A stretch of DNA of 32,231 nucleotides, from the NCBI GenBank assembly GCA_003662995.1, contig QMZC01000021.1:1-32231 (forward strand), written 5' to 3'. A program made the position numbers and the translations under genes. The stretch comes from Archaeoglobales archaeon (GTDB taxonomy: Archaea > Halobacteriota > Archaeoglobi > Archaeoglobales > Archaeoglobaceae). Positions within the stretch are counted from its first letter, which is position 1; the number at the start of each line of letters is the position of its first letter. Shown piece by piece: positions 1-30,392 of the stretch. The notes under the pieces are model-generated. The model was not told where the DNA came from. It saw only the letters and a program-made list of their open reading frames with translations, and ran no database searches.

Positions 1-380
1 AGTTCGTTTATGCGGAAAGAATGCACGACTTTTCCAGTATCGTTGTCGAACAGTACAACTAAGACTTCCTTTGTCGCTGGTGAGGTGCCGACGAAGACTG
101 TAAGCGGGATTACGCCACCTTCCGGCTTCATCAATCCGATATCTGTTAAAACGAGTGCAGCGAGCTCGATGAATATGTCTTCAAACAGCCTCATTTTTGC
201 CTCGACTTCATCAACCGCATAGTGTTGTTTTAGCTTTTCAATAAACTGCGAATCCTGATGAGCTTCGATCAGGGAAAACTGATGCCATTCGTCAAATACG
301 CTTATTAGCAAATCATCGGGAAAATTTTGGCTCAACCTCTCCTTAAGCCTTTCAAGGATTTCTTTTCCTGAAGTTTGCAT
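1..380 (-). CDS. Unknown protein, C-terminus beyond the window edge
   Basis: The minus strand is open from an ATG at 380 to the left edge, giving 126 residues without a stop. I do not recognise the family. The visible part is an acidic, mostly helical N-terminal half (about residues 1-80), then a beta-rich stretch with GGVIPLTVFVGTSP and a run of hydrophobic strands. The ATG lies close behind GGTGAA. It overlaps the end of the upstream gene by 29 nt, which argues for one translationally coupled minus-strand operon. No signal peptide, membrane segment or catalytic motif is visible. Confidence 0.75.
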   Translation of the reverse strand, partial: MQTSGKEILERLKERLSQNFPDDLLISVFDEWHQFSLIEAHQDSQFIEKLKQHYAVDEVEAKMRLFEDIFIELAALVLTDIGLMKPEGGVIPLTVFVGTSPATKEVLVVLFDNDTGKVVHSFRINE

Positions 381-747
381 AAATTTCACCTACTCTTTTT
401 CTTCGCTCTAGGTCATTTAAGACAATCCCTGTGTTTAGAGCGTATTTTTTGTTTTTATACTCATACGGGATTTCCACTAACCCGCTTCGAGTAACGAGGT
501 ATATCATTGTTCTTATATCATCTTTTTCTTTGATCACTCTTTTGATGTAGCTACCTTCGAGAACATCTACAACAAACTTCTTATCCACGAATCCACTAAC
601 GTCGATCTTGTTAATTGTTTCCCTTGACAGCATCCAGGTTGGAGTCCAACTACCTTTGGTGTACGCAAGCTCCATCTTCAGCTCGTTGCCTGAGCGGTAG
701 AAGAAGCTCATATGTTTTAACACAAGCTGCTTAAGAACAGTTAACAT
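352..747 (-). CDS. Unknown small basic protein, 131 residues
   Basis: An ATG at 747 is preceded by GGAGGG at good spacing, so the start is well supported. The protein is basic, with no transmembrane segment and no motif I can name. The C-terminus is rich in Arg and Lys (ERRKRVGEIYANFRKRNP), which could contact nucleic acid, but that is only an inference from charge. Its end overlaps the next minus-strand gene by 29 nt. The VWA-domain gene ends upstream at 2237 to 819, so this gene probably belongs to the same transcript. Confidence 0.7.
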   Translation of the reverse strand: MLTVLKQLVLKHMSFFYRSGNELKMELAYTKGSWTPTWMLSRETINKIDVSGFVDKKFVVDVLEGSYIKRVIKEKDDIRTMIYLVTRSGLVEIPYEYKNKKYALNTGIVLNDLERRKRVGEIYANFRKRNP

Positions 748-818
748 AACAACCCTCCAACAAGGTCTTAGGACAGAAATCCTCGGGGATTAAAAATTCA
801 AGTTAAAAATAAAACTAA

Positions 819-2237: not shown

Positions 2238-2261
2238 AGTATCAACTCCAAAAGAATTTAA

Positions 2262-2771
2262 CTAAATCAGCTGTGCAAGAAGTTCCTGACCGATCTCTTC
2301 AAGAACTTCTCTAAGATTTCCCGGAGTTACAATCCTCACAGGCACGGCATCGAAAGGGTTGAAATCTTCATCGCTTATCCAGCCAACTTCAATCGCTCCG
2401 AGCTTTATGAAAAGCTTTTCAATATTATCCCAGCTCGCTAAATGCCAGCAGATGCAGCTGAGATATATCCATTCACCATTGTTGTAAAGCTCATAGCCTT
2501 TGTGCATCTCACATCTCCCAGCGAGGTAATTCATGCATACATCATTACTTCTGGGCTCCGGCAATTCTATCAGCTTTGCAACGAGGGGATGCTTCTCCTT
2601 AAGTATTCTATCTCTTCCCTTCACCGGAATCTCTGTCTCACTTCTAATTCTCTGCCAGTCATCGTGAAATTCCGCAAGGTCGTCCAGCACGTATTTGGCT
2701 ATTTTAACTGCCAGCTTTGCCTCGTCCTCGCTTCCAAATCTTGCTTTAAGGTAAAAAGTAGCTTCTCCCAC
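2262..2771 (-). CDS. Unknown cysteine-containing protein, 169 residues
   Basis: A GTG start at 2771 sits six bases behind CGGAGGCG. The protein has a cluster of cysteines and a histidine in the middle (CMNYLAGRCEMH at about 80-91, then CICWH at about 105-109) that could bind zinc or a metal, flanked by acidic helices. I do not recognise the family. It lies between the VWA gene, only 24 nt downstream, and a group of small genes, so it is probably co-transcribed with the MoxR/VWA pair and is a candidate partner or client. Confidence 0.7.
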   Translation of the reverse strand: MGEATFYLKARFGSEDEAKLAVKIAKYVLDDLAEFHDDWQRIRSETEIPVKGRDRILKEKHPLVAKLIELPEPRSNDVCMNYLAGRCEMHKGYELYNNGEWIYLSCICWHLASWDNIEKLFIKLGAIEVGWISDEDFNPFDAVPVRIVTPGNLREVLEEIGQELLAQLI

Positions 2772-2869
2772 AAAACCGCCTCCGGCTGTTCAGAGTAAAA
2801 TGAGTATCAGACCAGAGCCATTGAGTCCTCTATTAGAACAGTAGTTGACGAAGAGATTCATATTTGAAA

Positions 2870-3187
2870 TTAATACTCGCTTGCTAGCAGGAATGTCAGC
2901 GTATACCGCGTCTTCACTTTTTGACCGAGCTGCTCGCTTAAAGCTTCGGCGCTTCCATAGTCGTCTAGGATAGCATACACCTTCTCCTTGATTTTTCCGA
3001 ACGGTACTCTTAACGTTCTTCCTTCGTCTTCCAGCTGCTCTTCATCCGCTTCTGGATCAAAGATTACCCAGTCCGTCTTTGGATAGATCTTTGACAAGGC
3101 TATTCGCATTATCTCAGCCTGCACATCCGGATTAAGATTTGCAAATCCGGCTGTCCTCAAAATAACAAATCCACTCAAGGATGTCAC
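2870..3187 (-). CDS. Unknown small acidic protein, 105 residues
   Basis: The start is a GTG at 3187 that overlaps the stop of the gene before it as GTGA, a typical sign of translational coupling. The product is acidic with alternating strands and helices, has no cysteine or catalytic motif, and is not a family I recognise. It reads like a conserved hypothetical of an archaeal element. The coupling matters because it shows that the frame ending at 3184 is really translated. Confidence 0.65.
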   Translation of the reverse strand: MTSLSGFVILRTAGFANLNPDVQAEIMRIALSKIYPKTDWVIFDPEADEEQLEDEGRTLRVPFGKIKEKVYAILDDYGSAEALSEQLGQKVKTRYTLTFLLASEY

Positions 3188-3448
3188 CTTTTCAAAACAA
3201 CCCCAAATCCCAGCTCCTTCAAAGCCTCTACAGCCTCCTCAACACTGCTGAACAGATATGCGTCGCTATCGTCTTTCAGCGCTCTCACCGTATCCCCATT
3301 TATGAAGAACACATGCAAGCCCTGACCTTTGTATCTGTTTACAATCCCCTGTTCCCCTCCAGCGCTCCCACGAGATTCTGCTGCCGTCTTTCCCGTACTT
3401 CAACACAAACCGTCTGGAAAAACATGATACGTCCACCTTGTAGCGCAT
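3184..3448 (-). pseudogene. Small gene split by a one-base frameshift
   Basis: The frame from the ATG at 3448 gives a plausible N-terminus (MRYKVDVSCFSRRFVLKYG) and then runs into a stop after 60 residues. From about 3350 a second frame gives a clearly protein-like C-terminus (NRYKGQGLHVFFINGDTV, ending FGVVLKR) and stops at 3184 in a GTGA overlap with the next gene. Removing a single G from one of two GGGG runs (minus-strand complement of 3346-3349 or 3354-3357) joins both into one protein of about 87 residues. Either the base is a sequencing error, the gene is freshly broken, or the ribosome shifts at the G runs. The function is unknown. Confidence 0.7.
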
Positions 3449-3506
3449 AAAAACAACCCCTGCTCCTTAAAAACCTAAAATGCTTAAATGAGAAGAAATC
3501 TAAAAC

Positions 3507-3758
3507 TCAAGTCTTCTTTCCAGAAAACTCGTAATACCTCCTGAGGAACTCCTCCAGTTCCATCTGCAAATCCTCTCTGATTATTTTTCGCAGCAAACCT
3601 CTTGGTATCTCTCTGTTTCCATGAACGGGGACTGTCGTAACCCTGCCGTCATCAGCTTTCAACCTTACGTGTGAGCCTTTCATCCTCACGGGTTTAAAAC
3701 CGAGTTCTTCAAGGAATTTGATTAGATCTTTTGCCTTGATTAATGGAAGCTTTGCCAT
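3507..3758 (-). CDS. hicA: HicA-family mRNA interferase toxin
   Basis: The product of about 83 residues has the dsRBD-like HicA fold, with KDLIKFLEELGF at the N-terminus and the GSH motif carrying the catalytic histidine (H30 from the chosen ATG). HicA toxins cleave mRNA until they are blocked by HicB. I chose the ATG at 3758 because GAGGTCG lies just upstream; a TTG four codons earlier is possible but has no binding site. It overlaps the 3' end of the HicB gene by 50 nt, so antitoxin comes first and toxin second. The C-terminus has the usual long amphipathic helix, so the toxin looks intact. Confidence 0.88.
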   Translation of the reverse strand: MAKLPLIKAKDLIKFLEELGFKPVRMKGSHVRLKADDGRVTTVPVHGNREIPRGLLRKIIREDLQMELEEFLRRYYEFSGKKT

Positions 3759-3987
3759 ATTCGACCTCAACCTCTCTGTAACCCACGAATTTTACTGCTC
3801 TATCTATCCCCTCCTCTTCCAGACACATTTCTATGACTTCCCTTATGTTATCCATAGCCTCCTCAATTGTTCCGCCGTACGTATGACAGCCTTTAAAGAG
3901 GGGGCAGCTAACGATGTAATAGCCGTCCTCGTCAACCTCGACTATTACCGGGAAGCGGAGCCTAGCTTCACTCGTTTTTTGCACCAT
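3709..3987 (-). CDS. hicB: HicB-family antitoxin
   Basis: The product has the degenerate RNase-H-like fold of HicB: FPVIVEVDEDGYYIVSCP, then GCHTYGGTIEEAMDNIREVIE. This family neutralises HicA by masking its active site. I chose the ATG at 3987 because AAGGTGA lies at good spacing; a TTG at 4011 would add eight residues but would place that binding site inside the gene. The C-terminal tail after residue 75 is short and has no obvious ribbon-helix-helix DNA-binding domain, so autoregulation by this protein alone is doubtful. It is encoded just downstream of the MoxR gene. Confidence 0.87.
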   Translation of the reverse strand: MVQKTSEARLRFPVIVEVDEDGYYIVSCPLFKGCHTYGGTIEEAMDNIREVIEMCLEEEGIDRAVKFVGYREVEVEYGKASINQGKRSNQIP

Positions 3988-4020
3988 CACAAATATTTCA
4001 CCTTTACTCAATATAAGCTT

Positions 4021-5127
4021 TTAGAACATCTTATCTAGCATGCTCACCTTCAAAGACTGTATTTCATCGAGGATCTCATCCAGCTCAGCAGTATCTTTTC
4101 CACTGCTCAAAGCCATCTTGCTCAACTCTTTGATTTCATTCTCAATAACTTTCAGCTTTGCCATGATCTCCTGAACTTCCGCTGGATCAATCTTGCTTTG
4201 TAATTTACTTGTGTAATCGTTGATTATATCCCTGTACTCCATCACCTTTCTCGCAAATGGGTCAACGACATCCATGATTACTGATCTAACAATTCTCACT
4301 TGCTCTGGAGAATCCCACATTATGTACTGGAGAACTCTTAGATCGTCAGTTGTTGCGACACTTCTAACGTGGAAGAATGCATGAGCTTTAACAACAGCTA
4401 TTGCTTGCTTGAAACGCCTATCGCTCACAATTATTCCGTTTTCTCTGAAATTTCTCCTCAGCTCAACTATGATTGGCAGTATGGGACTGATATCTACCTT
4501 AGCCACGTGTTCTTGCATTATTTTCAGCTCATCCTTTGTAATTCTAGTCTTCGGAGTGTACTCGTCATTTTTCTTTAGCATTTCTTCGAAATTCCCATCG
4601 TTCTTGATGTATTCCACAACGTACCTGATGAGTAACCTGTCGTAGAGTGCTGCCAGCTCCTTCTCATCCTCCGGCAGCTCGTTGCTCGCTGCAATGAGAG
4701 TGTTCAATGGTACTTTTACAATTCCGCCATCGTGATAAATTCTCTCATTGATTACTGACAGTAGAGAATTCAGAATCGCACTGTTGGCTTTGAATATCTC
4801 ATCTACAAATGCTATTTCAGCCTCTGGAAGTTTGTTTGCTGTGATGCGTTTGTACTCTCCCTTCTCCAACGCTGTCAAATCGATTGGGCCAAAGAGTTCT
4901 TCTGGCGCAGTGAACCTCGTAACAAGCCATTCGAAATATTTGGCATCAAAGTGAGAAGCTATAGCCCTCGCAATTGCGGACTTAGCAGTTCCAGGAGGAC
5001 CAAGGATATATACATGCTGTTTGCTCAAAACTGCCAGAATCAGGAGTTTTACAAGCTCTTCCCTCTCCTTAAAATATTCACACATCTCCAAAACGACATT
5101 CTGGAGTTTCCTACTCTCAACTCCCAT
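4021..5127 (-). CDS. MoxR-family AAA+ ATPase, 368 residues
   Basis: This is a typical MoxR/RavA-like AAA+ protein. Walker A is GPPGTAKS (residues 43-50), Walker B is IAFVDEIF (about 105-112), sensor 1 is N149 in AASNEL, and the YDR at 162-164 is in place for an arginine-finger or sensor role. A helical lid follows, and the C-terminus is coiled-coil-like (about 290-368). The ATG at 5127 sits behind GGAGGTG. MoxR ATPases act as hexameric remodelling machines with a VWA partner, and the partner is encoded at 819-2237. The two are separated by five small genes including HicAB, which is unusual, since these pairs are normally adjacent. Confidence 0.92.
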   Translation of the reverse strand: MGVESRKLQNVVLEMCEYFKEREELVKLLILAVLSKQHVYILGPPGTAKSAIARAIASHFDAKYFEWLVTRFTAPEELFGPIDLTALEKGEYKRITANKLPEAEIAFVDEIFKANSAILNSLLSVINERIYHDGGIVKVPLNTLIAASNELPEDEKELAALYDRLLIRYVVEYIKNDGNFEEMLKKNDEYTPKTRITKDELKIMQEHVAKVDISPILPIIVELRRNFRENGIIVSDRRFKQAIAVVKAHAFFHVRSVATTDDLRVLQYIMWDSPEQVRIVRSVIMDVVDPFARKVMEYRDIINDYTSKLQSKIDPAEVQEIMAKLKVIENEIKELSKMALSSGKDTAELDEILDEIQSLKVSMLDKMF

Positions 5128-5168
5128 TAAAACACCTCCAGAAGAGAGTGAATTCGTTAAACTCCAGA

Positions 5169-5452
5169 TTAGATTAAATTAGCTAGCAAAACCTTCTTTA
5201 CTGCTTCTTCTACAATATCGCTCCTAATCTCAAAATAAAGCGGCGCCCACCAACCATTGCCAGCATCCCATGCTATGAGCGAGATCTCATCGCTGATTTT
5301 GAACCTCCAAGCCCTTTCACATATTCTTCAGCACGTTCTATACTCGTTTTACGTCCAAACTTTGACAGTGTATTATCGAGTTCTGATTCCTCGATTTCAC
5401 TTTCTTTATTCCAGCCATCAATAACTTCTTCAACGGGTAAGAGCACAATCAC
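5169..5452 (-). pseudogene. Small gene split by a one-base frameshift, about 94 residues
   Basis: A GTG at 5452 lies six bases behind GGAGGA and opens MIVLLPVEEVIDGW, followed by an acidic middle. The frame fails after EEYVKGL, but the next frame continues as AWRFKISDEISLIAWDAG and ends at 5169 with VKKVLLANLI. Adding one G to the GGG complementary to 5312-5314 restores a single protein. The C-terminal part is rich in Trp and looks like a folded domain. The function is unknown. The tight spacing to its neighbours suggests it was part of the same operon as the MoxR gene. Confidence 0.65.
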
Positions 5453-5480
5453 TTCAACTCCTCCAAAAAATGAAGTTGGT

Positions 5481-6440
5481 TTAAGCAGTCGACTTAGCTT
5501 TAATTTCAACCTGTGAGTATTGTATCTGCCTTATTTTGTTTAGCAAACGCTCTGCTTTTTCGAGTAAGCTCGTCGTCCTGTTCAAGGACACTTTGAGCAT
5601 TTTAGTGTACTTCTCTGCCATTCTCGTCGCTTGCTCGATCTGCTTCGCAATTTCATCAACCTGCCTTACCTTGGAATCTTCAGAGTCAATTTTTAGCAGC
5701 CGTTCAATGGCCGAATTCAGAATCTCTTCTAAAGTATCCTCAACCTTTATCTCGAGCATTCTGCGGTGACGCGTTGTGTTTGCTATGGGAGCGTACCAGA
5801 TCTCTGTTCTGTTGCTAGGATCTATCTTCTTAATCTCCTCTACGATCTTGGAAAACCTCTCAATCCAGTAGAAATCATCGATAGGTACGAAGTATACTCC
5901 ACCGCTCGGCTTCAGCTTTACCCTATTGCAGCTGTCAAGGATTCTGTGGAGGATTTTTCTTACGTGCTCATCAGTATAGCAGTCCTTTTCCCTTTCAAAC
6001 CTGTCTAGAATTTCCTTCACAATATCTCTAACTACTGGATCTGCCGTTTTAAGGGAATAATTTACATTCCTGCTTTTCTCATCATATGCAATCTCTCCAA
6101 CAACATTGTAGCTCAACTTTTTGCCCTTCTTCCTCTTCTCCAGTACTATCTTCCTCGTAAGCCCTGTTTCCAGCGGTCTGAGCAGGAGGAACGTTTCAGA
6201 ATCTGCAAATTCGTCAATCTTCTTTTCTTTGTACTCAGAGCAAATCCGCTTGAAAGCATCGCCATGCTTTGGATCTACCGGTTTAAACCTCGAAAGTCCA
6301 TGCTTATCAAACCAAGCATGCAGCTTATCTTTATGCACAAGGGTTCTGCTAATCGTATACCAAACAGCATACCCTAACACATCTTTCTCATCATTCTCCA
6401 AAAATACAGCCTCAGATCCGCCAATTCTTAACCTCTGCAT
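5481..6440 (-). CDS. Unknown 319-residue protein, possibly DUF6744-like
   Basis: An ATG at 6440 is preceded by GAGGTGAT. The first 60 residues are compact, a central region (about 90-240) mixes strands and helices and includes PSGGVYFVPIDDFYWIERF, and the last 80 residues are a long Glu/Lys/Arg-rich coiled coil ending near the stop. The overall plan resembles proteins of archaeal mobile elements annotated as DUF6744, but I cannot confirm this. It overlaps the putative longer form of the following small gene and lies upstream of MoxR in the same direction, so it may provide a scaffold or substrate for that ATPase. Confidence 0.7.
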   Translation of the reverse strand: MQRLRIGGSEAVFLENDEKDVLGYAVWYTISRTLVHKDKLHAWFDKHGLSRFKPVDPKHGDAFKRICSEYKEKKIDEFADSETFLLLRPLETGLTRKIVLEKRKKGKKLSYNVVGEIAYDEKSRNVNYSLKTADPVVRDIVKEILDRFEREKDCYTDEHVRKILHRILDSCNRVKLKPSGGVYFVPIDDFYWIERFSKIVEEIKKIDPSNRTEIWYAPIANTTRHRRMLEIKVEDTLEEILNSAIERLLKIDSEDSKVRQVDEIAKQIEQATRMAEKYTKMLKVSLNRTTSLLEKAERLLNKIRQIQYSQVEIKAKSTA

Positions 6441-14540: not shown

Positions 14541-15707
14541 GTGGTGGATGTGACCACGCTTTTGGACTTCTTTGAGGACACGAACATAATAAAGAACGGT
14601 GAAGTGTTTGACTTAAGGTATGTTCCAAGGCACTTCTACATAAGAAAAGAGATGCACAGGATTGCGGAGAACATAAAGATGTTCATAAAGTACGGAATTC
14701 CTGAACACATCTACCTTTCGGGAAAGCCGGGGAGTGGTAAGACAGCAAGCATCAAGTACCTGCAGAGGGAGGCGGAGATGAGGGGATTTAACCTAGGCTT
14801 TTACTACGTCTCTGGGAGGGAGTACAACACGAAGTACAAGATTATGGCTAGGATATGTGGGTTTGAGAGGAGCATTGACCCCAACAAGGTGCATGACGAG
14901 TTCTTTAGAAGGGTGAAAGGTAAGGCAATCATCGTGCTGGATGAGGCGGATCTTGTCAGCCCGAGGGAGCTGAACGATGTCTGCTTCATGTTCTCACGGT
15001 GGGGTGAGGCTGTTGAGGTTGCTAACGATTCGGTTGTGCTGTTAATTCTGATCGGATGCAACGTAAACCTAACAAAATCTCTCGAACCCTCGGTCTTCTC
15101 CTCCCTCCATCCAAAGTTTGTGTTTTACGGCAGCTACAAGAAAGAAGAGCTCTTCGAAATACTGAGGCTGAGGGCTAAAGAGGGTTTGCACGATGGCGGT
15201 TGGAGCGATGAAATGCTCGAGGAGATCGCAGCTGTTTGTGCTGAAGAGTATTTGGGCGATGCCAGGTTTGCGATACTTGCTTTGAGGGAACTTGCTGTCA
15301 ACAGCGAGTTTAGAGGATTGGATAGGATTGAGGGAGATATAGAGGGGGCATTTGTAAAGGCTGCAGAGAATGTATTAATTGCCACTCTTTCCGGACTCGG
15401 CTCTCACGAACTCCTCATACTTTATTCAGCCTGCAGAACGCCGGAGGATGACAGGACGATCGGAGCGATTCGAAGAATGTACGAATTTGCATGCAGTTGT
15501 GCTGGCGTTAAACCAGTGAAGAAGAGCAAGTTCTATGAAGTTGTGCATGCTTTAGATAGGCTAAACGTTGTAAGCACTGCTGGCAAGGCTAAGGCTGGGA
15601 GGGGGAGACCATTAAACTATGTCATGCCCCTCGTCGATGAAGATCTAACAATCAGATACGTTGAGGGGATGTTCGATGGTCTGAGGAAAGGTCTAAGCTG
15701 GGGGTGA
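14541..15707 (+). CDS. cdc6: Orc1/Cdc6-family replication initiator, 388 residues
   Basis: The N-terminal AAA+ domain has Walker A GKPGSGKT (61-68), Walker B IIVLDEAD (130-137) and the sensor stretch VVLLILIGCNVNL. The C-terminal 120 residues carry a winged-helix domain (FYEVVHALDRLNVVSTAGK, then GRGRPLNYV). These proteins bind origins and load the replicative helicase. The start is one of three GTG codons (14541, 14544 or 14550); the last has the best spacing to GGTGG. Divergence from chromosomal Orc1 and the RadA gene four bases downstream suggest an initiator belonging to the element. AGTATACT sites just upstream suggest control. Confidence 0.9.
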   Translation: MVDVTTLLDFFEDTNIIKNGEVFDLRYVPRHFYIRKEMHRIAENIKMFIKYGIPEHIYLSGKPGSGKTASIKYLQREAEMRGFNLGFYYVSGREYNTKYKIMARICGFERSIDPNKVHDEFFRRVKGKAIIVLDEADLVSPRELNDVCFMFSRWGEAVEVANDSVVLLILIGCNVNLTKSLEPSVFSSLHPKFVFYGSYKKEELFEILRLRAKEGLHDGGWSDEMLEEIAAVCAEEYLGDARFAILALRELAVNSEFRGLDRIEGDIEGAFVKAAENVLIATLSGLGSHELLILYSACRTPEDDRTIGAIRRMYEFACSCAGVKPVKKSKFYEVVHALDRLNVVSTAGKAKAGRGRPLNYVMPLVDEDLTIRYVEGMFDGLRKGLSWG

Positions 15708-15711
15708 TTTT

Positions 15712-16623
15712 GTGAGCGATTTTGATATGCTGCCCCATCATTCAGTTCTTAGAGATGCGGGCTACAAAACTGTTGGTGAGGTGGCGGAAGAGGGCACTCA
15801 CGAGCTCTCTGTAAGAACAGGGTTGACGAGAGAAACTGCAGCAGAAATCATTTCTAAAGCCAGAAGAATTGCTTACGCTTCAGAGTTCAAAAGATTGGAA
15901 TCCTATCTTAAGGCAAGGGAGTCTGTGGAGAGAATAAGTACTGGTAGCAGGAGTTTTGATGAGCTGCTTGGCGGTGGAGTTGAAGTAAGGGCGATTACCG
16001 AGTTCTTCGGAGAGAGCTCATCAGGTAAGAGTCAGCTCTGCTTCCAGCTTGCTGTCAACGTTCAGCTTCCTAAAGATAAGGGTGGGCTAGAGGGGGCAGT
16101 TATTTTCATAGATACCGAGGGAACTCTAAGACCTGAGCGTATACTGCAGATGGCAGCTGCTAAAGGACTGGGAAGAGATGTTTTGAGTAACATCTACGCT
16201 GCCCAAGCCTACACAACTGAGAAACAGATCAGACTGCTCGAATCGGTGTTTGAGCTTGCAGAAAGACTAAACGTGAGGCTCTTGATCGTTGACTCTCTGA
16301 CAGCAAACTTCAGAAGGGAATTTGCTGGAAGGGCTGCAATGCAGAACAGGAGCAAAAAGCTGAACGAGTTCATGGAAATACTTAGGAAGTTTATCAGAAA
16401 ATTCGATGCCGCTGCTGTGGTCACAAATCAAATTTCTGCAGAAGTGGATGCCCTAACACCTGCGGTAAGAGCTGTTGGCGGAAACATAGTTGCCCATAGC
16501 TCAACCTACAGCGTGTTGCTAAGAAAGGCCAGAGCGGATCTGCGAATAGCCAAGCTGGTGGATGCACCTCATTTGCCTGAGGCTGAAGTAACATTCAGGA
16601 TAACTGAGGAAGGAATCTGCTAA
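15712..16623 (+). CDS. radA: RadA-like recombinase, 303 residues
   Basis: The N-terminal helix-hairpin-helix domain (DAGYKTVGEVAE, then GLTRETAAEIISKARR) precedes a RecA core with DELLGGGVE, Walker A GESSSGKS (100-107), Walker B LLIVDSLTANF and the L2-like region ending with AHSSTYSVLLRKA. RadA forms filaments for strand exchange. The P-loop differs from the usual GEFGSGKT, and the protein is about 20-30 residues shorter than chromosomal RadA. It starts with a GTG four bases after the Orc1 stop, so the two form an operon. A paralogue carried by the element for recombination-dependent replication is a reasonable inference. Confidence 0.9.
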   Translation: MSDFDMLPHHSVLRDAGYKTVGEVAEEGTHELSVRTGLTRETAAEIISKARRIAYASEFKRLESYLKARESVERISTGSRSFDELLGGGVEVRAITEFFGESSSGKSQLCFQLAVNVQLPKDKGGLEGAVIFIDTEGTLRPERILQMAAAKGLGRDVLSNIYAAQAYTTEKQIRLLESVFELAERLNVRLLIVDSLTANFRREFAGRAAMQNRSKKLNEFMEILRKFIRKFDAAAVVTNQISAEVDALTPAVRAVGGNIVAHSSTYSVLLRKARADLRIAKLVDAPHLPEAEVTFRITEEGIC

Positions 16624-20411: not shown

Positions 20412-20693
20412 GTTGTTGAATCGATAGAGTATAAAGAAATTGGGAAAAAGTATAAGCCTCAGAAGTGGCTTTTTCCCGGGCAGAAGAAAGACAAACATAT
20501 CACCACAAGAACAGTGCAGAAAATCTTTGAAAAAGTATGTAGAAAAACTGGGATAAACAAAGAAGCTACGGTTCACTCTTTAAAGCGCGGTTTTTATCAC
20601 ATATTTGCTTTAAAGGGTGTTAATCTGAAATACATTCAGGAGTTGCTTGGATATAAAAGCAACAAAACGACAGAAATTTATAGTTTACAATGA
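20412..20693 (+). pseudogene. C-terminal fragment of a tyrosine recombinase
   Basis: The frame from 20412 reads KPQKWLFPGQKKDKHITTRT, then a helix and KEATVHSLKRGFYHIFALKG, VNLKYIQELLGYKSNKTTEI and YSLQ. This is the C-terminal catalytic part of an XerC/D- or IntI-like recombinase. The HxLRH box is altered to HSLKRG, changing the catalytic Arg, and the normal His after LLG is Tyr; the nucleophile Tyr remains. A stop lies just before the fragment, so the N-terminal half is missing. It ends 115 bp before the first cassette boundary and points in the same direction as the cassettes. Confidence 0.85.
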
Positions 20694-20709: not shown

Positions 20710-20841
20710 ATGAAGCCCGCTGGATATGCTAGAGAGGTGATAAAAAGAATGGATAAGTTCGTATATCTTTCTGCATCTGGACAAAACGTGAATTTCGTAT
20801 ACACTAAGTTAACCGCAATCGCTGGAGGTGAAAAATCATGA
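20710..20841 (+). CDS. Possible small ORF spanning the first cassette boundary
   Basis: An ATG at 20710 follows AAGGAGG at very short spacing and opens a 43-residue frame that ends in an ATGA overlap with the next gene. However, the frame runs straight across the first cassette boundary (GTTAACC, 20808-20814), and the next gene has its own good binding site. It is likely to be a chance or remnant reading frame; confidence is low. Confidence 0.3.
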   Translation: MKPAGYAREVIKRMDKFVYLSASGQNVNFVYTKLTAIAGGEKS

Positions 20842-21071
20842 ACGAAGAAGAAATTTTATCCAAATTAGAAAAACTGAGTGTAATTGAAGTGTTTGAAAGG
20901 ATAAGTCACCAATTATCATCTGAAAAAAGCAGGTCATTATGGAGAAGTATACAAAGTGAAATAAAAAGCGGAGCTGTTAGAAGTGCCGTTAATTGGCTTG
21001 AAAATGCCTTAAAGCAGAAAAGCGAACAAGTTAGAGAAGCATTAAACCGGTTTAGGGAGGTGGAAGAATGA
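20838..21071 (+). CDS. Small helical protein, first gene of cassette 1
   Basis: The ATG at 20838 lies eight bases behind GGAGGTG and only 30 bp after the cassette boundary. The 77-residue product is entirely helical and charged (EEILSKLEKLSVIEVFERIS, then KQKSEQVREALNRFREV) and has no motif I can name. Its stop overlaps the start of the SMC-like gene as ATGA. It probably is an accessory component that binds the ATPase, as in multi-component SMC defence systems, but this is an inference from order. Confidence 0.7.
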   Translation: MNEEEILSKLEKLSVIEVFERISHQLSSEKSRSLWRSIQSEIKSGAVRSAVNWLENALKQKSEQVREALNRFREVEE

Positions 21072-23188
21072 ATTTCAGGATAAACTCCATAACTATAGAA
21101 GGATTTAAAGGGTTCGCTAACAGACAAACTATATCTGTAAATGGTAAAAATCTTTTCATATTCGGTCCAAACGGTTTTGGGAAGTCAAGCATTATAGAGG
21201 CTATAAGATGGTGTTTGTTCGGTTTAACTGGAAGACCTGAAGAAATAGTAAGAAATCAATTTTATAGTGGAAATTGTTTTGTAGAATTAGAGCTAAAGGA
21301 TGAGGATAGTAAGCTGTGGAAAGTTCAAAGAGTGCTCTCTCCCGGTGCTAGCCGTTCCAGAATGAAAATAATAGATCCAGAAGGAAAAGAAAGAACTCAA
21401 ACAGAAGTTTTTCCCTTTTTAACTTCTGTTGGACCTAGGGAAGGAACTTATATTGTTTTTGGTGGTCCATCACAATTTCCGTCCCGAAGACGACCCTTAG
21501 AGAGTGTTGAAATTTCGGACTTCGGTAGAACCATATACGCATATCTGCGTTTAGAGGAGTTACCGGAATTAATAGAAAGGCTAAACAGACTGATTGAAGA
21601 GCAAAAGGAAGAAGAGACACAACTAGCAGAAGAAATTGATGAAGAAAAAGTAAAAATTGAAAGAGAATTGGAGGAAGTAAATGAGAAGCTGGAATCCATT
21701 CTTAAAGATCCACCATGGGGAGAATCTGAACCACCTACATTAGAGGAAACAAAAGAGAAAATTAAAGATTTAGTAACTCGGTTAGGCGAGGAAGTAAAAC
21801 AAGCGCCTCCAGAGGGTTTAAGTGAAAACGAGTTAATCGGCGTGGCTGAAAAATGGTTACAAGAATTATCTATATCTGAGGAAGATTTGGAGAGAAAAAT
21901 TTCTGAAATAAAAGAAAAACAAAGGAGGATTAAAGAACTATGGGATGAATTAAAAGGAGAAGAAGTAGGCATTGAAAGGTTGAAGGAGGAGATAAAACAA
22001 AGAGAGAGCAAACTTCAGGAGCTTTTGGGTGATAAGAAGAGTATCGATGATATTCATAAAGAGCTAGCAAGACTTGAAAGAGAGATAGAACAAACAAGCC
22101 TTTTAACAGAAATCCTTGATAAAACGCGTCAATATTTAGAAACAAACGAAGTAGAGGAGTGTTTTATCTGTTCATCTCAAGTTAACGGAGAAAAGATAAG
22201 GGAAGATATTAACCAAAGACTTGAAAACATAGAACCTAGCAAACTACGGCTTATACAGAAGTGTAATGAACTAAAAGATCTATTAGAACGGATTACACAA
22301 ATGCAAAAAGAACTTGATGAGAAAAATCAAATTCTTCAGCAATTTTTAGAAAACTACCAAGAAATTAAAAACTCTCTGTGCGAAGTTCTGGAAGTTGAGG
22401 GTGAGTCAACTTCTGAGGAAGTAGAATCTGTTCTGGAAAGGTTAGAAAAGGAAAAAGAAGGGTTAGAAAGGAGTTTAGAGTCAAAAGAGGGTTACCGCCG
22501 GAATTGGGAACGTAAGATAGAGAAAGTAAAAGAAGAAATGCGTTTTCATCGATTGCGCAAGAGGAAAGAAAAACTTGAAATGCGCTTGGAAGTAGGATTA
22601 AGCCCAGTTGAGGAATCATATGGTGAGCTGGTAGAATTTAGAGAAAGTTTAGAAGATATAAGAGATGCACTATATTCCGAACTTAAGAAAGTGTTGGAAG
22701 ATGCCCTTCCCCCAATTAGCGAGATGATGACAGAAGTTTATAGGCATCTTACTAATCAACTCTCCTTTGACATGATTAAGTTAAAATTAGAAGAGCAAGA
22801 TGGCTCATTTTCTCCAAAATTGATAGTGCGTGTTGCCTCCAGCGATGAGCCTGATCTTCTTTTGGATCCAGAACAGGTTTTAAACGGACAGGCACTGAGT
22901 GCTTTAAGGCTAGTACCATACTTTGTATTTTCTAGATTTCAAAGAAATAGATGGGGGCTCGATTTGCTTTTACTAGATGATCCCACTCAAAGCTTTGATA
23001 CACAGCGTATTGAACTTTTACTGGAAGAGTTAGGAGTGGCATCTGCACATGCTCAGATAATCGTGTCCACTCACGAAGAGGATCGCTTCCGCCCGCTTTT
23101 ACCTAAGTTTTTCAAAGAAGAAGACGTTACAATGGTGAATGTCAAAGGATTTGATAGGAGAGAGGGACCTAGGTTTGATATCGAATAA
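21068..23188 (+). CDS. SMC/Rad50-like ATPase, 706 residues
   Basis: Walker A is GPNGFGKS (33-40) and Walker B is LLLLDDP (D637, D638), followed by a D-loop-like SFD. The signature region is degenerate (LNGQALSALRL in place of LSGGQ). Between them lie two long coiled coils with a CFIC hook (C365, C368) of the Rad50 zinc-hook type. Rad50-like ATPases bind DNA ends and drive a nuclease. Here the next gene, overlapping by 50 nt, encodes a PD-(D/E)XK-like protein. The gene order recalls Lamassu-like and other SMC-effector defence operons. Arg codons of the CGN type are more frequent than in the flanking arms, which suggests transfer from another lineage. Confidence 0.88.
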   Translation: MNFRINSITIEGFKGFANRQTISVNGKNLFIFGPNGFGKSSIIEAIRWCLFGLTGRPEEIVRNQFYSGNCFVELELKDEDSKLWKVQRVLSPGASRSRMKIIDPEGKERTQTEVFPFLTSVGPREGTYIVFGGPSQFPSRRRPLESVEISDFGRTIYAYLRLEELPELIERLNRLIEEQKEEETQLAEEIDEEKVKIERELEEVNEKLESILKDPPWGESEPPTLEETKEKIKDLVTRLGEEVKQAPPEGLSENELIGVAEKWLQELSISEEDLERKISEIKEKQRRIKELWDELKGEEVGIERLKEEIKQRESKLQELLGDKKSIDDIHKELARLEREIEQTSLLTEILDKTRQYLETNEVEECFICSSQVNGEKIREDINQRLENIEPSKLRLIQKCNELKDLLERITQMQKELDEKNQILQQFLENYQEIKNSLCEVLEVEGESTSEEVESVLERLEKEKEGLERSLESKEGYRRNWERKIEKVKEEMRFHRLRKRKEKLEMRLEVGLSPVEESYGELVEFRESLEDIRDALYSELKKVLEDALPPISEMMTEVYRHLTNQLSFDMIKLKLEEQDGSFSPKLIVRVASSDEPDLLLDPEQVLNGQALSALRLVPYFVFSRFQRNRWGLDLLLLDDPTQSFDTQRIELLLEELGVASAHAQIIVSTHEEDRFRPLLPKFFKEEDVTMVNVKGFDRREGPRFDIE

Positions 23189-23708
23189 ATCTTATAGAGT
23201 GTATAAAATTCTAAATGAATTACGTGAAAATGTAGGAGATAGTGAGTTTGGATATAGAGTCCAAGGGTTATTCGCTGCTACTTTGGTATGCCTTGACGTG
23301 AAGATATTAGAAATCAAACCTCAAGGGCATCCTGATATTATAGGAATGAAAGAAAATGAAATTATTAAATTCGAAGTAGAAGCAGTATTAGGTGAATCAA
23401 GGAAGAGGATTGTAGATAAGGAAGACATCGAGGCTATCAAACCTCATAATAAGGGTGAAAAAGGCTATATTGCAGTATTATATTGTAGATTTCCACCTAA
23501 ATGGTTGTTAATAGACTATAATCGCTTGAAGCGACGTGTATCTGAACATATTTCTATAATTACTATGGAGTGCTTAAATGACAAGGAATTTTCTAATGAG
23601 TTTACTGAATGCTTTTACAAGTTAATCCTGTCTAACGCATCTCGTCTCTTTACTTTTACTTTTCATTTACTTCGTAATAAAGCCCTAGAAGGAGTGAAAT
23701 TAATATGA
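23139..23708 (+). CDS. PD-(D/E)XK-like nuclease or effector, 189 residues
   Basis: The motif GHPDIIGM (P65, D66) followed by IKFEVEAVLG (E79, E81) resembles a PD-(D/E)XK core with ExE in place of ExK. Helices around residues 16-50 precede it. The last 60 residues contain the sequence CFYKLILSNASRLFTFTFHL. The start is uncertain: ATG at 23139 overlaps the ATPase by 50 nt, while TTG codons at 23151 or 23175 would reduce or remove this overlap. It is the last gene of cassette 1, ending 46 bp before attC1, so it is likely to act with the SMC-like ATPase. Confidence 0.75.
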   Translation: MSKDLIGERDLGLISNKSYRVYKILNELRENVGDSEFGYRVQGLFAATLVCLDVKILEIKPQGHPDIIGMKENEIIKFEVEAVLGESRKRIVDKEDIEAIKPHNKGEKGYIAVLYCRFPPKWLLIDYNRLKRRVSEHISIITMECLNDKEFSNEFTECFYKLILSNASRLFTFTFHLLRNKALEGVKLI

Positions 23709-23754
23709 ATATTAATATGGTGATGTTCATTGAGAGATCTTTGCCAGCGACTGC

Positions 23755-23836
23755 GGTTAACAGCGGACATACGGCTACGCTTTACTCCACCCAAATTCGG
23801 CATAGCCGAACTTCGTATGTCCGCAAAACGTTAGGC
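23755..23836 (+). other. attC-like site 1, between cassettes 1 and 2
   Basis: R'' is GGTTAAC (23755-23761), L'' GCGGACATACG (23763-23773), L' CGTATGTCCGC (23814-23824) and R' GTTAGGC (23830-23836). L'' and L' are perfect 11-bp complements. The terminal hairpin is TTCGGC-ATA-GCCGAA (23796-23810). Length, box order and core GTTRRRY agree with integron attC sites. The GTTAGGC belongs to cassette 2 apart from its G. Confidence 0.87.
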
Positions 23837-23870
23837 GACATGCTTTATAAAATAAGGAGGTGAGGACAAT

Positions 23871-25538
23871 ATGGCATTTATAGAAGCTAAAGAAGTTAAA
23901 TTACAGGCTCTGCTCTCCAATGCGCAAGAGGCTTACAGAGTACCTCTTTATCAAAGACCTTATGCGTGGAGCAGAGATCAGTGGGAAGATTTATTTGAAG
24001 ATTTAAACAGCCTAAAACCTAGTGATGTGCATTTTCTTGGTTCCATTGTAGTAGTGCCTGAGGGTGAGCATAGACTGGGAGTAAATTATTTTCAAGTAGT
24101 AGATGGACAACAAAGGTTGGCAACAATCCTAATTTGGCTTTCTGCTATAAGAAACCTCGCTCAAGAAAATGGAAACAACGAATTAGCAACTCATTTAACG
24201 GAAACATTCCTTTTTGCTAGAGAATGGGAAAGCGGTAAACAGAGAAAAATACCTAAACTTCAACTTGGGCAGTTGGATAATGATGCTTTTCAGCGAGTTT
24301 TAGAAGGAAAACCAAAAGACTATAACCATCTAATATTCGAATGCTACGAATATTTCAAGAACAAAACAGATAATGAAAACATGTGGCAAATTTTGTTAAA
24401 TAATGTTTCTATCGTACATATTAATGCTTTTAATCATTTTAACGCTTTTAGGTTATTTGAAACATTAAATGATCGAGGATTAGAATTATCTGCAGCAGAT
24501 TTAATAAAAAATTTCCTATTAATGAAAGTTTCATCAAAAGAAGAAATATTCAATGATACTATAAGTCAATGGAATGAGATGTATGAAAAAGTTAGGGATA
24601 AGGAGCCTGTGAAATTTGTAAGGAGATATATCTTGTCCAATTACAAGGGGAAAATTTCAGAATCACGACTCTACGAAGGAGTAAGAAAAAGATTGGAAAA
24701 AGAAAACCCTGAGAAGATATGTGATTTTGTAAAAGATTTGAATGTTAATGCAACCATTTACAAGAAAATCTTTGAGTGTAGTTTCTCGCAAAATAAAATT
24801 AATAAAAAACTACAGGAATTACATTTAGTGGAAGTTGCTCCAAGTTTCACTTTGCTCTTGAAAATCCTGCGTTATTTAGAAAAAGGAGAAATTTCTGAAG
24901 AGGATATATTAGAGATAATGGAAATGATAGAATCTTTCCACATAAGATGGGGTGTTTGTGGACAATCAACATCCAGATTAGATCAAATCTATAACGATAT
25001 TTGCATGGAGTTAAAAAACAAAGACAAACAACCTCAAAAATTCAAAATAATCATAAAAAACAAGTTATTACAGGAAATAAAAAATAATGCAGATGATGAG
25101 ATTTTTAAAAGAAACTTTAGTCAAAGAGCTTTTAAGCCAAATGAGACTAGAACAAAATACATTTTGTGGAAGTTATCAAAACCAACAGGTGAAACTGCTC
25201 TCAATATAAAAGAAATCCAAACAGAACATGTATTGCCTCAAACATTAAGCAATGAATGGATGAAGTATTTGAAAGAGAGAACTTCTAAAAACGAGAATGA
25301 AATAAGTGCCCTTCATAAAGAGAACCTTAACAGAATAGGTAATTTGACCATCATAAAAGGTGAGTGGAATATCAGCATGTCAAACAGATTGTTTATTAAA
25401 AAGAAAGAAGATTATAGAAAAAGTGAATTTCAAATAACTAAAGAACTCTCTAACTATGATGAATGGACGTTCGAGGAAATAGACAAAAGATCAAAACAAT
25501 TAGCGGAGGAAGCTTGTAAGATATGGAGATTGAAATAA
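23871..25538 (+). CDS. GmrSD-like type IV restriction protein (DUF262-DUF1524)
   Basis: The N-terminal DUF262 domain has VPLYQRPYAW (24-33) and VVDGQQRLAT (76-85); the C-terminal DUF1524 HNH nuclease domain has TEHVLPQ (E452, H453), then NRIGNLTI with the usual N and K residues. Fused GmrS and GmrD halves in one chain form a modification-dependent endonuclease that cuts glucosylated or otherwise modified phage DNA using nucleotide hydrolysis. At 555 residues it is normal for the fused family. The ATG follows AAGGAGGTGAGG, 35 bp after the cassette boundary. It is the only gene of cassette 2 and looks intact. The target DNA modification is not known. Confidence 0.92.
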   Translation: MAFIEAKEVKLQALLSNAQEAYRVPLYQRPYAWSRDQWEDLFEDLNSLKPSDVHFLGSIVVVPEGEHRLGVNYFQVVDGQQRLATILIWLSAIRNLAQENGNNELATHLTETFLFAREWESGKQRKIPKLQLGQLDNDAFQRVLEGKPKDYNHLIFECYEYFKNKTDNENMWQILLNNVSIVHINAFNHFNAFRLFETLNDRGLELSAADLIKNFLLMKVSSKEEIFNDTISQWNEMYEKVRDKEPVKFVRRYILSNYKGKISESRLYEGVRKRLEKENPEKICDFVKDLNVNATIYKKIFECSFSQNKINKKLQELHLVEVAPSFTLLLKILRYLEKGEISEEDILEIMEMIESFHIRWGVCGQSTSRLDQIYNDICMELKNKDKQPQKFKIIIKNKLLQEIKNNADDEIFKRNFSQRAFKPNETRTKYILWKLSKPTGETALNIKEIQTEHVLPQTLSNEWMKYLKERTSKNENEISALHKENLNRIGNLTIIKGEWNISMSNRLFIKKKEDYRKSEFQITKELSNYDEWTFEEIDKRSKQLAEEACKIWRLK

Positions 25539-25557
25539 AATTAGTTACGTGCATGTT

Positions 25558-25642
25558 GCCTAACAGCGGACATACGAAGTCCAGCCGTTAGGCTGGATTT
25601 GGATGGAGCAAAGTATAGCCGTATTTCCGCAAGACGTTATAC
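25558..25642 (+). other. attC-like site 2, between cassettes 2 and 3
   Basis: R'' is GCCTAAC (25558-25564), L'' GCGGACATACG (25566-25576), L' CGTATTTCCGC (25620-25630, one mismatch) and R' GTTATAC (25636-25642). A terminal hairpin TCCAGCC-GTTA-GGCTGGA lies at 25580-25597. L'' is identical to that of attC1. The outer flanks are complementary to the start of cassette 2 (GTTAGGCGACATGC against GTTAGGCAACATGC). Confidence 0.87.
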
Positions 25643-25673
25643 GCCATTGCTATAATTAAGCAAGGGTAAAAAT

Positions 25674-26296
25674 ATGATGCATAAAGGAGCTGCACGAGGT
25701 AGAGGTAGGGATATGCCTGAGGAAATGTGAAGAAAGGTAGAAAAGTTTTTAGATGAATTTGGAGTTATTGTAGAGCGCATCTCTCAAGAACATAGGCTTC
25801 TGAGAGCAATTGTTAGAAATCACTTCTCTTGTAGTTTTGTTAGTATTATTAGACGCTCAAAACCTCTATATCCCTGCTCAATATCATTTTGGAATGCCGA
25901 ATACAATATACATTTACGGACCTAACAAGGATTTATCAATCCATTATTAAACCCACAGTCGAATCTATGGAACTTGTTTGCCGTCGGGCTGATGATTATA
26001 AAACAAGTGGGGCAATAATTCAAGATATATGGAAAGCAATTTGTAAAGCACGGATCATCATTGCCAATCTTACTAACTTAAATCCTAATGTTATGTGTTA
26101 GTTGGGTATCGCTCACACTGTTGGAAAAGAGACCACCTTAATTTATCAACGCAAAGAGAAGGAAATTAAATTTCCTTTTGATCTTATACATATCCGACGG
26201 ATAGAGAACGAAGACACTGCTCTTAGTGGTAAAAAATTGGAAAATGATCTTAAAGAGACCGTAAAAACTATCCTTAAATCACCAACAGTCTCATGA
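25674..26296 (+). pseudogene. Cassette 3: broken gene with a nucleotide-processing-like domain
   Basis: The C-terminal part reads IIKPTVESMELVCRRADDYK, then AIIQDIWKAICKARIIIANL, NPNVMC, a TAG, and LGIAHTVGKETTLIYQRKEK. Homologues of this nucleoside 2-deoxyribosyltransferase/TIR-like family have NPNVMYELG, so the TAG lies where Glu is expected. Upstream, from the ATG at 25674, the frame reads GRGRDMPEEM followed by a TGA and KVEKFLDEFG. The gene is therefore broken at two points or more. Such domains process nucleotides or sense infection in defence, but this copy is inactive. Confidence 0.75.
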
Positions 26297-26312
26297 GGAG
26301 AAAAGCAACGGT

Positions 26313-26355
26313 GTATAACAGCGTGTTTACGGTTCGCTACTACTCACCCAAGTTG
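26313..26355 (+). other. Left half of attC-like site 3
   Basis: R'' is GTATAAC (26313-26319), followed by AGCGTGTTTACG, TTCGCTACTACTCACCCAAG and TT. This matches the left half of attC1 (AACAGCG, TACGG, ACTC, ACCCAA). The flank CAACGGTGTATAAC is complementary to GTTATACGCCATTG at the start of cassette 3 with two mismatches. The right half (L', R') is missing, so the array is cut here. Confidence 0.75.
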
Positions 26356-26477
26356 TAAATAAAATACTTCAAACATCGGTTCTGCTTTGTACAATGGTTG
26401 GTCTCAACCTCCTAACTTTGTAGAGCCAGAAATTTTCATAGTAATTAAAAGGTTTAGTTATCTAGATTGCTAGAATG

Positions 26478-28158: not shown

Positions 28159-29352
28159 ATGTATAAAGTAGACAAATACATACGCAATAACCTAGAGAAT
28201 ATCAAAAAAAGATCAATCAGAGAGTTACCAAGCCATAGAAGACTTTTTGAGCGACTTGATTGCTGAAGGAATTTCAATTTACAGAGTTTACACATACTCA
28301 TGCTGGTTGAAGAGAATTAACATAATAAGAAATAACAGAGTGGGATAAAAGAGATATCAAAGCTATCCCCAATCATTACATTCTTTTGGTGAATTCGGGA
28401 AAATTGTCAGATAATTCATTTGAAAAGTTAAGAAGACTCTCAAGAAATTCTTTAAATGGCTTGGAAAGGGGGAACTCCTAAACTGGCTTTCGCTTAAAAA
28501 CATTAGCAGCAAGGTTATGTCCCAAGATCTCATCACAAAAGAGGAATCTGAGGCGATGCTAAAAACATGCATGAATTCAAGGGATAGGGCTTTGATATCC
28601 CTGCTTTATGAGTCAAGGGCGAGAATTGGTGAAATTGGTTTAGTGAGAATAAAGGATGTTTCATTCGATGAATATGGAGCGATAGTATGGTTGCCAAAGA
28701 GCAAAACAGTTACAAGGAAGCTCAGAGTAGTTTATTCGGCAAGGTATCTTTCAGAATGGCTTTCTGACCATCCTCTAAAGAATCCAGAATCTTCACTTTG
28801 GATAAAACTGAGTGGTAGAAACGCATTTAAAGGAATGGACTACGATGACATCAGAATACAAATAAAGAAGATTGCAAAAAGAGCAGGAATAAAGAAGAGG
28901 ATTTATCCTCGCTTGTTCAGGCACACAAGGGCTACAAGACTACTTTCAAGAGTTTCCGAATCGATTAGAGCTAAGTATATGGGCTGGGTTAACGGTAGCA
29001 AGATGGTTGGTGTTTACGTGCATTTAGCAAGCGAGAATGTGGATGAGGCAATTTTGAAAATGCATGGCATCAAAACAAACGGTAATGGAAAAGATTTAGA
29101 AGTTAAGCAGTGTCCCGCTGCTTGATGGTAAATCCCGCAACATCAAGATTCTGCTCAAGATGCGGTTTACCATTAACAGAGGAGGCTATCCGGGAAGTCG
29201 AGGAGTGTGAGAAGAGGAAGATTGAAGCTTTAAATGAGCTGACAAATCCACAATTTATCAAAATCTTCATGGGGATGCAGAAGGAGATTGAAATGCTGAA
29301 GGCTGAAATTGAAAGGATGAGGAATGAAAGAAGTGGAGGAGAAGCTAAATGA
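28159..29352 (+). pseudogene. Broken archaeal tyrosine integrase with a zinc ribbon
   Basis: From the ATG at 28159 the protein can be followed through frame changes near 28222, 28335 and 28430: MYKVDKYIRNNLENIKKRSI, then YQAIEDFLSDLIAEGISIYR, EITEWDKRDIK, KTLKKFFKWLGKGELLNWLS and the intact catalytic part from 28517. That part has RARIGEI (first Arg), PRLFRHTRAT (the HxxR box with His changed to Arg) and VGVYVHL (nucleophile Tyr). Another single-base loss near 29108 hides the C-terminal zinc ribbon (CPRC and CSRC when corrected). The recombinase would have moved an archaeal element. Single-base shifts at short runs could include sequencing errors, but the His-to-Arg change supports decay. Confidence 0.85.
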
Positions 29353-30392
29353 AGTACTTGCGATAGGATGAAATACTTTTCAAGGACAAAACCGTGTTTG
29401 ATCCTGGCTATTTACCAGAAACATTACTCCATCGAGAAAGGCAGCTTACAGCTTTGGCAGCAAATCTAAGGCCAGCTTTAAGGAGCTCAACTCCAATGCA
29501 CACCCTTTCATTCGGCCCGCCAGCAACAGGCAAAACTTCAGCCATGAGAACAATTCTGAATGAGATAAGTGATTACGCCTACACAGCATACATCCGCTGC
29601 CCTTTAGCAAGATCAGCGTACAAGGTTATGGCAAGGATATTCGAATGTGTTTGCAGGCATCAACCTTCGCAAACTGGAATATCGATAGCAAGGCTCTACG
29701 ATTCGATATGCTAGGAGCTTGCTGATGATGGAAAAGTTCTAATCGTTGCCTTGGATGACTTCAACTTTCTAGATGACGAAGCAGCTAACGACATCCTTTA
29801 CGCTCTTTTAAAGGCCCATGAAGAATATGCGGTTAAAATTGGAATTGTTGCAGCAACAACTGAAGGGGTTATGCTGGACATGGAGACGGGAGCAATCTAT
29901 TTTCCTCTTTATGATGAGGAAGAAATTGTAGACATATTAAGGCAGAGAGTTAAACTTGGCTTTTTTGAAGGAGTAATGGCGAATGAAGCATTCGATAGAA
30001 TTGTTGAGCTTACTGCAAAGGTGTGTGATTTAAGGTTTAGCATCTATTTATTAAGAATGTCAGGAATTGAGGCTGAAAGAAGAGCGAGCAGAAAAGTTGA
30101 GGTGGAGCTAAGGTTTTTCTGGCAAAGAGCATATCTGCATTAAATTTAGATGAAAGAGAAACTCTCAAAATCATTTACTCCATCAGAGGAGATGTAAACT
30201 CAGGAGATGTTTTCAAAAATTCTCAAAGCAGAAGTTAACATGAGCTATACTCGCTTTTACGAAATCATAAACAAGCTTGAAAGATTAAGGCTGATTGACG
30301 TTGTAATAGGAAGAAAGGGAAGAGGAATGACGAGATACATCATAAAGAAGTATGATAATAGTGCGATGCTGAAGGCTTTGAGTGAGTTTTAA
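29349..30392 (+). pseudogene. cdc6: Orc1/Cdc6 pseudogene, second copy
   Basis: From ATG 29349, overlapping the integrase stop as ATGA, the frame reads MKYLR, TAG, DEILFKDKTVFDPGYLPETL and Walker A GPPATGKT, then DSIC, a second TAG, and ELADDGKVLIVALDDFNFLD with Walker B. Around 30140 the frame changes (ALNLDERETLKIIYSIRGDV), and again at a run of A near 30215, where ILKAEVNMSYTRFYEIINKL and the winged helix follow. Two nonsense codons and two shifts make it non-functional. It belongs to the same decayed element as the integrase and is different from the intact copy at 14541. Confidence 0.85.

Follow-up and report, generated by a model that had tools for sequence, protein, structure and literature searches.

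A degraded integron-type cassette array in an Archaeoglobales genome, probably served by an integrase family that lacks the IntI additional domain

Introduction

Integron surveys recognize the integrase by its additional domain and score attC sites with models derived from bacterial arrays. In the reversed integrons of spirochaetes and planctomycetes, the integrase gene and the cassettes have the same direction, and the integrases are IntIs. Archaeal integrons were reported in 2022 by Ghaly et al. (PMC9668308), with 75 of 6718 genomes, six IntIs and 539 attC sites; the survey accepted an IntI only if it had the additional domain, and the Archaeoglobi are unnamed in its main text. Arrays of attC sites that have no integrase, or that have an IntI, have also been described in virulent phages, as clusters of attC sites lacking integron-integrases (CALINs; PMC9892861). 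Here we describe an array of gene cassettes, with the relic of an integrase gene beside it, in a stretch of 32,231 nt (hereafter the window) on contig QMZC01000021.1 of an Archaeoglobales archaeon (assembly GCA_003662995.1, a metagenome-assembled genome (MAG) of 187 contigs). Our reading, to which we give a probability of roughly 0.8, is that this Archaeoglobi locus would be a cassette platform of the integron type, now degraded, and run by a non-IntI integrase family that is sister to IntI.

Results

Cassette boundaries and attC sites

The array consists of three cassettes marked off by a first boundary at 20808, two complete attC sites and one truncated attC site (Table 1). The original prediction held that each cassette starts with a core complementary to the R'' core of its own attC, and all the claimed core pairs were present at their claimed positions. 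In cassette 1, the pairing of GTTAACC (20808–20814) with GGTTAAC (23755–23761) had the claimed extent (Table 1), and the match of this R'' to its own start was equalled at only 2 of the 1100 GTT positions in the window. In cassette 2, GTTAGGC (23830–23836) and GCCTAAC (25558–25564) lay within sequences complementary at 13 of 14 positions (GTTAGGCGACATGC and GTTAGGCAACATGC), and in cassette 3 GTTATAC (25636–25642) and GTATAAC (26313–26319) lay within sequences complementary at 14 of 16 positions, as read by eye. The three-cassette claim thus stood for the boundaries, but attC3 is only half a site, the gene of cassette 3 is broken and cassette 1 has three open reading frames (ORFs).

A generic attC grammar scan of both strands (R'' ending in YAAC, R' starting with GTTR, an inner stem near both, stem score of at least 8) passed exactly two sites in the window, attC1 and attC2. 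Two covariance models were built, R1 on five sites from the window and from an independent array in another Archaeoglobi genome (G007), and R2 on 47 sites. The scores of attC1 were 82.5 bits (R1) and 86.2 bits (R2), with a bottom-strand fold of z = −3.5. Those of attC2 were 71.5 bits on the plus strand and 33.6 on the minus strand with R1, and 41.0 and 42.5 bits, respectively, with R2. The interior of attC2 was inverted relative to attC1 and the rest of the family, with the outer spacers in the usual orientation, and its reverse complement resembled attC1, as if the tip of the hairpin had flipped. The folding check proposed with the original prediction came out in its favor for the two complete sites, both strands of which beat nearly all shuffled sequences (z of −2.7 to −4.4). 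The remnant at 26308–26390 did not do so, and neither R1 nor R2 matched the attC3 remnant. The 15-base L'' pattern, when searched in the same genome, had exact matches only at the two window sites, and an Rfam scan of the window matched nothing.

An integrase relic and an attI adjoin the array

Two features beside the array had been overlooked previously, the 3' relic of a tyrosine recombinase gene, assigned as the integrase of the array, and an attI. The relic gave a PF00589 match of 54.5 bits at 20433–20681 and shares its strand with the cassettes, and a search of the rest of the genome found no intact copy of it. Its nearest relatives, at 54–65% identity, adjoin attC arrays (in G080, G081, G082, G005, G025, G072 and others), and intact members have 362 (G080) and 348 (G081) residues. 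In every locus that had both, this type of integrase (type A) lay upstream of the array and on the same strand. Among 149 genomes, attC sites were found in 15 of the 17 with a type-A integrase versus 35 of the other 132 (Fisher p = 1.2e-6).

Alignment with IntI1 (MAFFT) indicated that the IntI additional domain, of roughly 40 residues near patch III, is absent from all the aligned array-side integrases, and the spacing between the KGxKDR and HxLRH motifs was 69 residues in an array integrase versus 112 in an IntI. The window relic matched the relatives lacking this domain across the additional-domain segment. The array integrases scored 230–239, under the TIGR02249 integron-integrase cut-off of 265, and were above the cut-off of XerA_Arch (NF040815). 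In a phylogenetic tree the IntIs formed one clade (support 100/100), all array-side integrases fell in its sister clade (86/78), and the Xer proteins were placed apart. The structure predicted for a relative encoded on a viral contig (mean predicted local distance difference test score 79.6, predicted template modelling score 0.53) had IntI4 (2a3v) as its best match among solved structures. Side observations on integrase decay were made at other loci: L122 (3960–4787) and L226 (3863–4852), one from a bacterium and one from an archaeon, have broken integrases that are both missing one shared segment, which surrounds the first catalytic arginine, and a further broken array-side integrase lies at 7088–7870 of L039. 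Such recurrent decay in many arrays fits with a cost of keeping the gene.

Between the integrase stop codon and the first cassette of 14 loci, from archaea and bacteria, we identified an imperfect palindrome of about GATATACGAA-nnn-TTCGTATATnnACnA|GTT. The 16 columns to the left of GTT held 11.4 bits, as compared with a mean of 3.1 and a maximum of 6.1 in 2000 random draws. In the window, the right arm of this attI is present and the left arm has decayed.

The attC family in other genomes

The grammar scan was also applied to loci that had been fetched solely for a related recombinase, and it found an attC site in G007, a genome of the same family as the window. With more of the surrounding DNA, this proved to be an independent array of three cassettes beside a glutamine synthetase gene, and restriction-modification genes were present in two of the cassettes. 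One G007 boundary, GTTGTCC, departs from GTTRRRY, yet the own R'' of that cassette is GGACAAC; the other core-letter exception to this grammar was GGTTAAC in attC1. R1 had matches in 50 of 149 relatives, and R2 (E ≤ 1e-4) in 99 of the 394 genomes of the phylum, so that the description of the system as uncommon did not hold within this phylum. Three of its genomes that consist of a single contig (G024, G044 and G428) also had such sites. By DNA pattern, at least 119 stretches were matched among named genomes, the archaeal carriers being Archaeoglobi, Methanophagales, Methanosarcinales, Aenigmatarchaeota, Bathyarchaeota and Methanoliparum and the bacterial carriers Dehalococcoidia, Ignavibacteria, Spirochaetes, Patescibacteria and others.

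The sites of this family are hairpins of 75–100 nt with variable R cores, and the loop motifs CCCAAATT and AACTTC recur among them. In 47 aligned sites with an 18-pair structure, 88.6% of cells were paired, as compared with 72.5% in shuffled and at most 40.4% in slid alignments, and two-sided changes were found in 14 of the 18 stem pairs. All seven core positions were complementary in 52 of 86 consecutive site pairs versus 10.2 with shuffled partners, and the complementarity between a cassette start and its own R'' continued to about position 17. We first took the long complementarity outside the core for a trait unique to this family and then dropped the idea, because one of the two cassettes of R388 has it too (12 bp, by eye); we therefore claim as a family trait only the A at position 11 of the cassette start, which is invariable and mostly unpaired (48 of 52).

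Stable hairpins soon after stop codons might also be repeated elements beside defence genes (terminators, repetitive extragenic palindromic elements or miniature inverted-repeat transposable elements) with no role in recombination. We regard this as extremely improbable, as the pair-shuffle test shows complementarity between the far-apart ends of a cassette, and the conserved attI that abuts the first boundary is not a hairpin.

The spacing of attC1 and attC2, at 1.7 kb, falls within the CALIN definition (at least two sites within 4 kb, no IntI nearby), and a non-IntI integrase relic adjoins this CALIN-like array. The array could be an ordinary CALIN: canonical IntI integrons elsewhere would have produced its cassettes and attC sites, which then reached archaea, and the neighboring Xer-like gene would be unrelated. 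In keeping with this, the IntI1 of Escherichia coli can use archaeal attC sites, and most archaeal arrays have been called CALINs (PMC9668308). In addition, 5 of the 39 genomes with this attC type that were reached via genome-collection loci encode a true IntI. However, no such attC was found in the fetched loci of those IntI genes (about 1.5 kb on each side), R2 matched no attC in the class 1 integron of R388, and related non-IntI recombinases do adjoin this attC type, with a fixed orientation and a conserved attI. Based on these observations, we consider an ordinary CALIN unlikely.

We consider it very unlikely that this is a module system, with double-stranded dif-like sites between which gene modules are flipped by a Xer recombinase. 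While the integrases pass the XerA_Arch cut-off and the attI is a short palindrome, the attC sites are covarying hairpins of the length given above with variable R cores rather than 28-bp dif-like sites, each cassette has its own matching R'', which dif modules would not need, and the best structural match is IntI4.

Related integrases on viral contigs

An earlier scan of viral sequences with the relic alone as query found nothing. When the integrase alignment was used to search IMG/VR, 80 loci were obtained, in 37 of which R2 had a total of 74 attC-like matches, at low scores (22–47 bits) and on contigs of which some are near-duplicates and not all may be viral. All 74 sites were on the strand opposite the integrase, and 71 were upstream of it, though more downstream sequence had been searched. 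The loci concerned (L327, L328, L330, L343, L347, L352, L354, L356 and about 30 more) are on AT-rich contigs, and their Xer-like integrase, which has no IntI domain, is divergent from the attC-like sites.

Genes in and around the cassettes

The defence genes claimed for the array were borne out by two defence-type cassettes, one with an SMC protein related to Lamassu LmuB and one with a GmrSD type IV restriction protein (Table 1). The 189-aa ORF of cassette 1 matched nothing in Pfam, PADLOC or NCBIfam; a motif read by eye (HPDIIG..FEVEA) suggests a putative PD-(D/E)xK-type nuclease. The broken ORF of cassette 3 had weak similarity to a TIR effector (PADLOC, E = 0.0065). Elsewhere, the contents of the cassettes were mixed, with the largest ORF in the sense direction in 26 of 30, and the defence load of the window and G007 is therefore not a rule. 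Large metabolic cassettes were noted in archaeal arrays (L225, 4682–7335; L272, 4276–5678), with, for example, genes for a 663-aa acyl/acetyl-CoA synthetase-like protein and a rubrerythrin-like protein.

Table 1. Coordinates of the array and its features within the window
Feature	Position	Strand	Description
Integrase relic	20415..20690	+	3' relic of tyrosine recombinase gene (the array's integrase); 92 residues, ends YSLQ*, everything upstream lost
attI	20775..20814	+	Right arm TTTCGTATACACTAA abutting G|TTAACC; left palindrome arm decayed; palindromic site ends at 20807
Cassette 1	20809..23830	+	About 3.0 kb, three ORFs; start GTTAACCGCAATCGCTGG pairs at 17 of 18 positions with R'' flank 23744–23761
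77-aa ORF, cassette 1	20838..21071	+	Starts 30 bp past boundary; PADLOC matches only weak
706-aa SMC-like ATPase, cassette 1	21068..23188	+	Best PADLOC match LmuB (Lamassu), PDLC03859, E = 1.7e-30; AAA_23, E = 1e-15
189-aa ORF, cassette 1	23139..23708	+	Overlaps SMC gene
attC1	23755..23836	+	R'' GGTTAAC, L'' GCGGACATACG, loop with CACCCAAATT and AACTTC, L' CGTATGTCCGC, R' GTTAGGC
Cassette 2	23831..25636	+	1.8 kb
555-aa GmrSD-type (DUF262/DUF1524) type IV restriction protein, cassette 2	23871..25538	+	PF03235, E = 3.4e-39; PF07510, E = 2.3e-26; PADLOC HEC-06/Orf5
attC2	25558..25642	+	R'' GCCTAAC, R' GTTATAC
Cassette 3, decayed	25637..26355	+	Broken ORF, frames interrupted; start complementary to own R''
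attC3, truncated	26313..26355	+	R'' GTATAAC, L'', first half of loop (CTCACCCAAGTT); L' and R' missing

The contig also encodes Cdc6 and Rad51-family proteins. At 28517–30392 there is a gene for a 202-aa tyrosine recombinase followed by fragments of a Cdc6-like gene, a stretch found again in several relatives at 74–79% identity and as a second copy in the same genome (C3). From these recombinase and Cdc6 remnants (28.5–30.4 kb), the earlier label of a mobile element appears plausible. A search of the 3' flank for empty sites matched relatives only in this recombinase/Cdc6 part and not in the flanking gene order, and it yielded no empty site. Adjacent Cdc6-like and Rad51-family (RadA-like) genes at 14541–16623 may have served an integrated element as its replication module. 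On the minus strand, at 352–6440, an operon of MoxR AAA, VWA (CoxE-like) and DUF6744 proteins resembles MoxR-VWA ternary systems.

The genes of the contig also bear on its origin, as a MAG of this many contigs could include a bacterial contig that was misbinned into it. We see hardly any prospect of this, given that Cdc6 and Rad51-family genes are on the contig, that its 28.4–29.4 kb region is 75–79% identical to same-family relatives, that G007 has its independent array by a glutamine synthetase gene, and that the sites occur in the three single-contig genomes.

Discussion

That the locus works like an integron is well supported. Its features include R''-L''...L'-R' hairpins, the pairing of each cassette start with its own R'', and an attI beside the integrase gene. 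As in canonical IntI integrons (class 1 and the Vibrio IntI4 system), there are R''/R' cores, a presumed GTTRRRY cut site, promoterless cassettes and an SPLD-like integrase C-terminus. The array-side integrase has no IntI domain, and the system therefore fails an IntI-based definition of an integron on that one tested feature. It further differs from the canonical systems in the HARP-like N-terminal domain of the type-A integrase, in the position of that integrase on the array strand, in the two conserved loop motifs, and in some long, multi-gene cassettes. The reversed integrons share the co-direction of integrase and cassettes with the window type and differ by having IntIs. With XerA, XerC and XerD the array integrases share their length, a catalytic core without insertion and NF040815 scores above cut-off, but they are linked to hairpin cassette arrays and the tree keeps Xer separate. 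The original prediction of an integron array in an archaeon was right about the type of array; the integrase family is not IntI, and this copy looks degraded.

We propose that the integrase, which is intact in relatives, would bind the folded, single-stranded attC of a circular cassette. It would cut between the G and TT of GTTRRRY, and the cassette would be joined at the palindromic attI just 3' of the integrase gene. The array would grow from attI and be read outward, co-directionally with the integrase gene. By analogy with IntI systems, we infer the circular intermediates, single-strand recombination, strand choice, cut position and integrase specificity of this scheme. The window array itself is partly decayed, with its integrase a relic, the left arm of its attI decayed and attC3 truncated. 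This copy is probably immobile now, and the relic and the truncated attC3 imply that its cassettes would be movable only by an integrase acting in trans.

Several points weigh against this interpretation. The proposed recombination is a prediction from sequence, and the attC models score the same family from which their training sites came. No close type-A integrase was found in the 35 attC-bearing relatives noted above, and some arrays may therefore use another integrase; conversely, G018 and G064 have type-A genes and no attC was detected nearby. Most array-side integrases are fragments, and the short N-terminal domain of type A has only a weak HARP match (E = 0.004, under cut-off). The tree was midpoint-rooted, and the support for the sister clade is modest.

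In G007, a groundwater euryarchaeon and Patescibacteria, the arrays have divergently oriented related integrases without the HARP-like domain. We lean towards a second, IntI-independent class of integron, with integrases that lack the IntI additional domain and with its own palindromic attI and attC family, in archaea, Patescibacteria, Dehalococcoidia and viral contigs, in which one branch would have integrases with a HARP-like N-terminal domain and same-strand arrays and the others divergent arrays. Such a class may retain a state that predates the gain of the additional domain by IntI, and it could be behind many arrays that are now classed as CALINs. The viral arrays resemble the phage CALINs (PMC9892861) in being attC arrays in viral DNA, and differ from them in that their integrase is Xer-like and oriented away from the sites.

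The arrays described by Ghaly et al. (PMC9668308) resemble the present ones in being attC arrays of archaeal MAGs with hairpin attC sites and same-direction ORFs, many without a recognized intI, and in the frequency of toxin-antitoxin and restriction cassettes. Here, in contrast, there is an integrase without the additional domain, a palindromic attI and a family-specific model with matches in about a quarter of the 394 genomes of one phylum. This suggests that few IntIs were found in the 2022 survey because many arrays adjoin a recombinase barred by the usual definition. A search of open-licence papers other than preprints found no integrase without the extra domain, or with a HARP domain, beside attC arrays, and as far as we searched the integrase class, the attI and the attC family are undescribed.

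If it is true that Xer-like integrases without the additional domain run arrays, a large part of the system has escaped the surveys, above all in archaea, and living relatives would make it possible to test whether integrons arose from Xer recombinases. Archaea, and perhaps their viruses, could then exchange genes, including defence genes, as ready-made cassettes. Together, these data suggest an overlooked branch of gene-capturing machinery common to archaea, bacteria and perhaps viruses.

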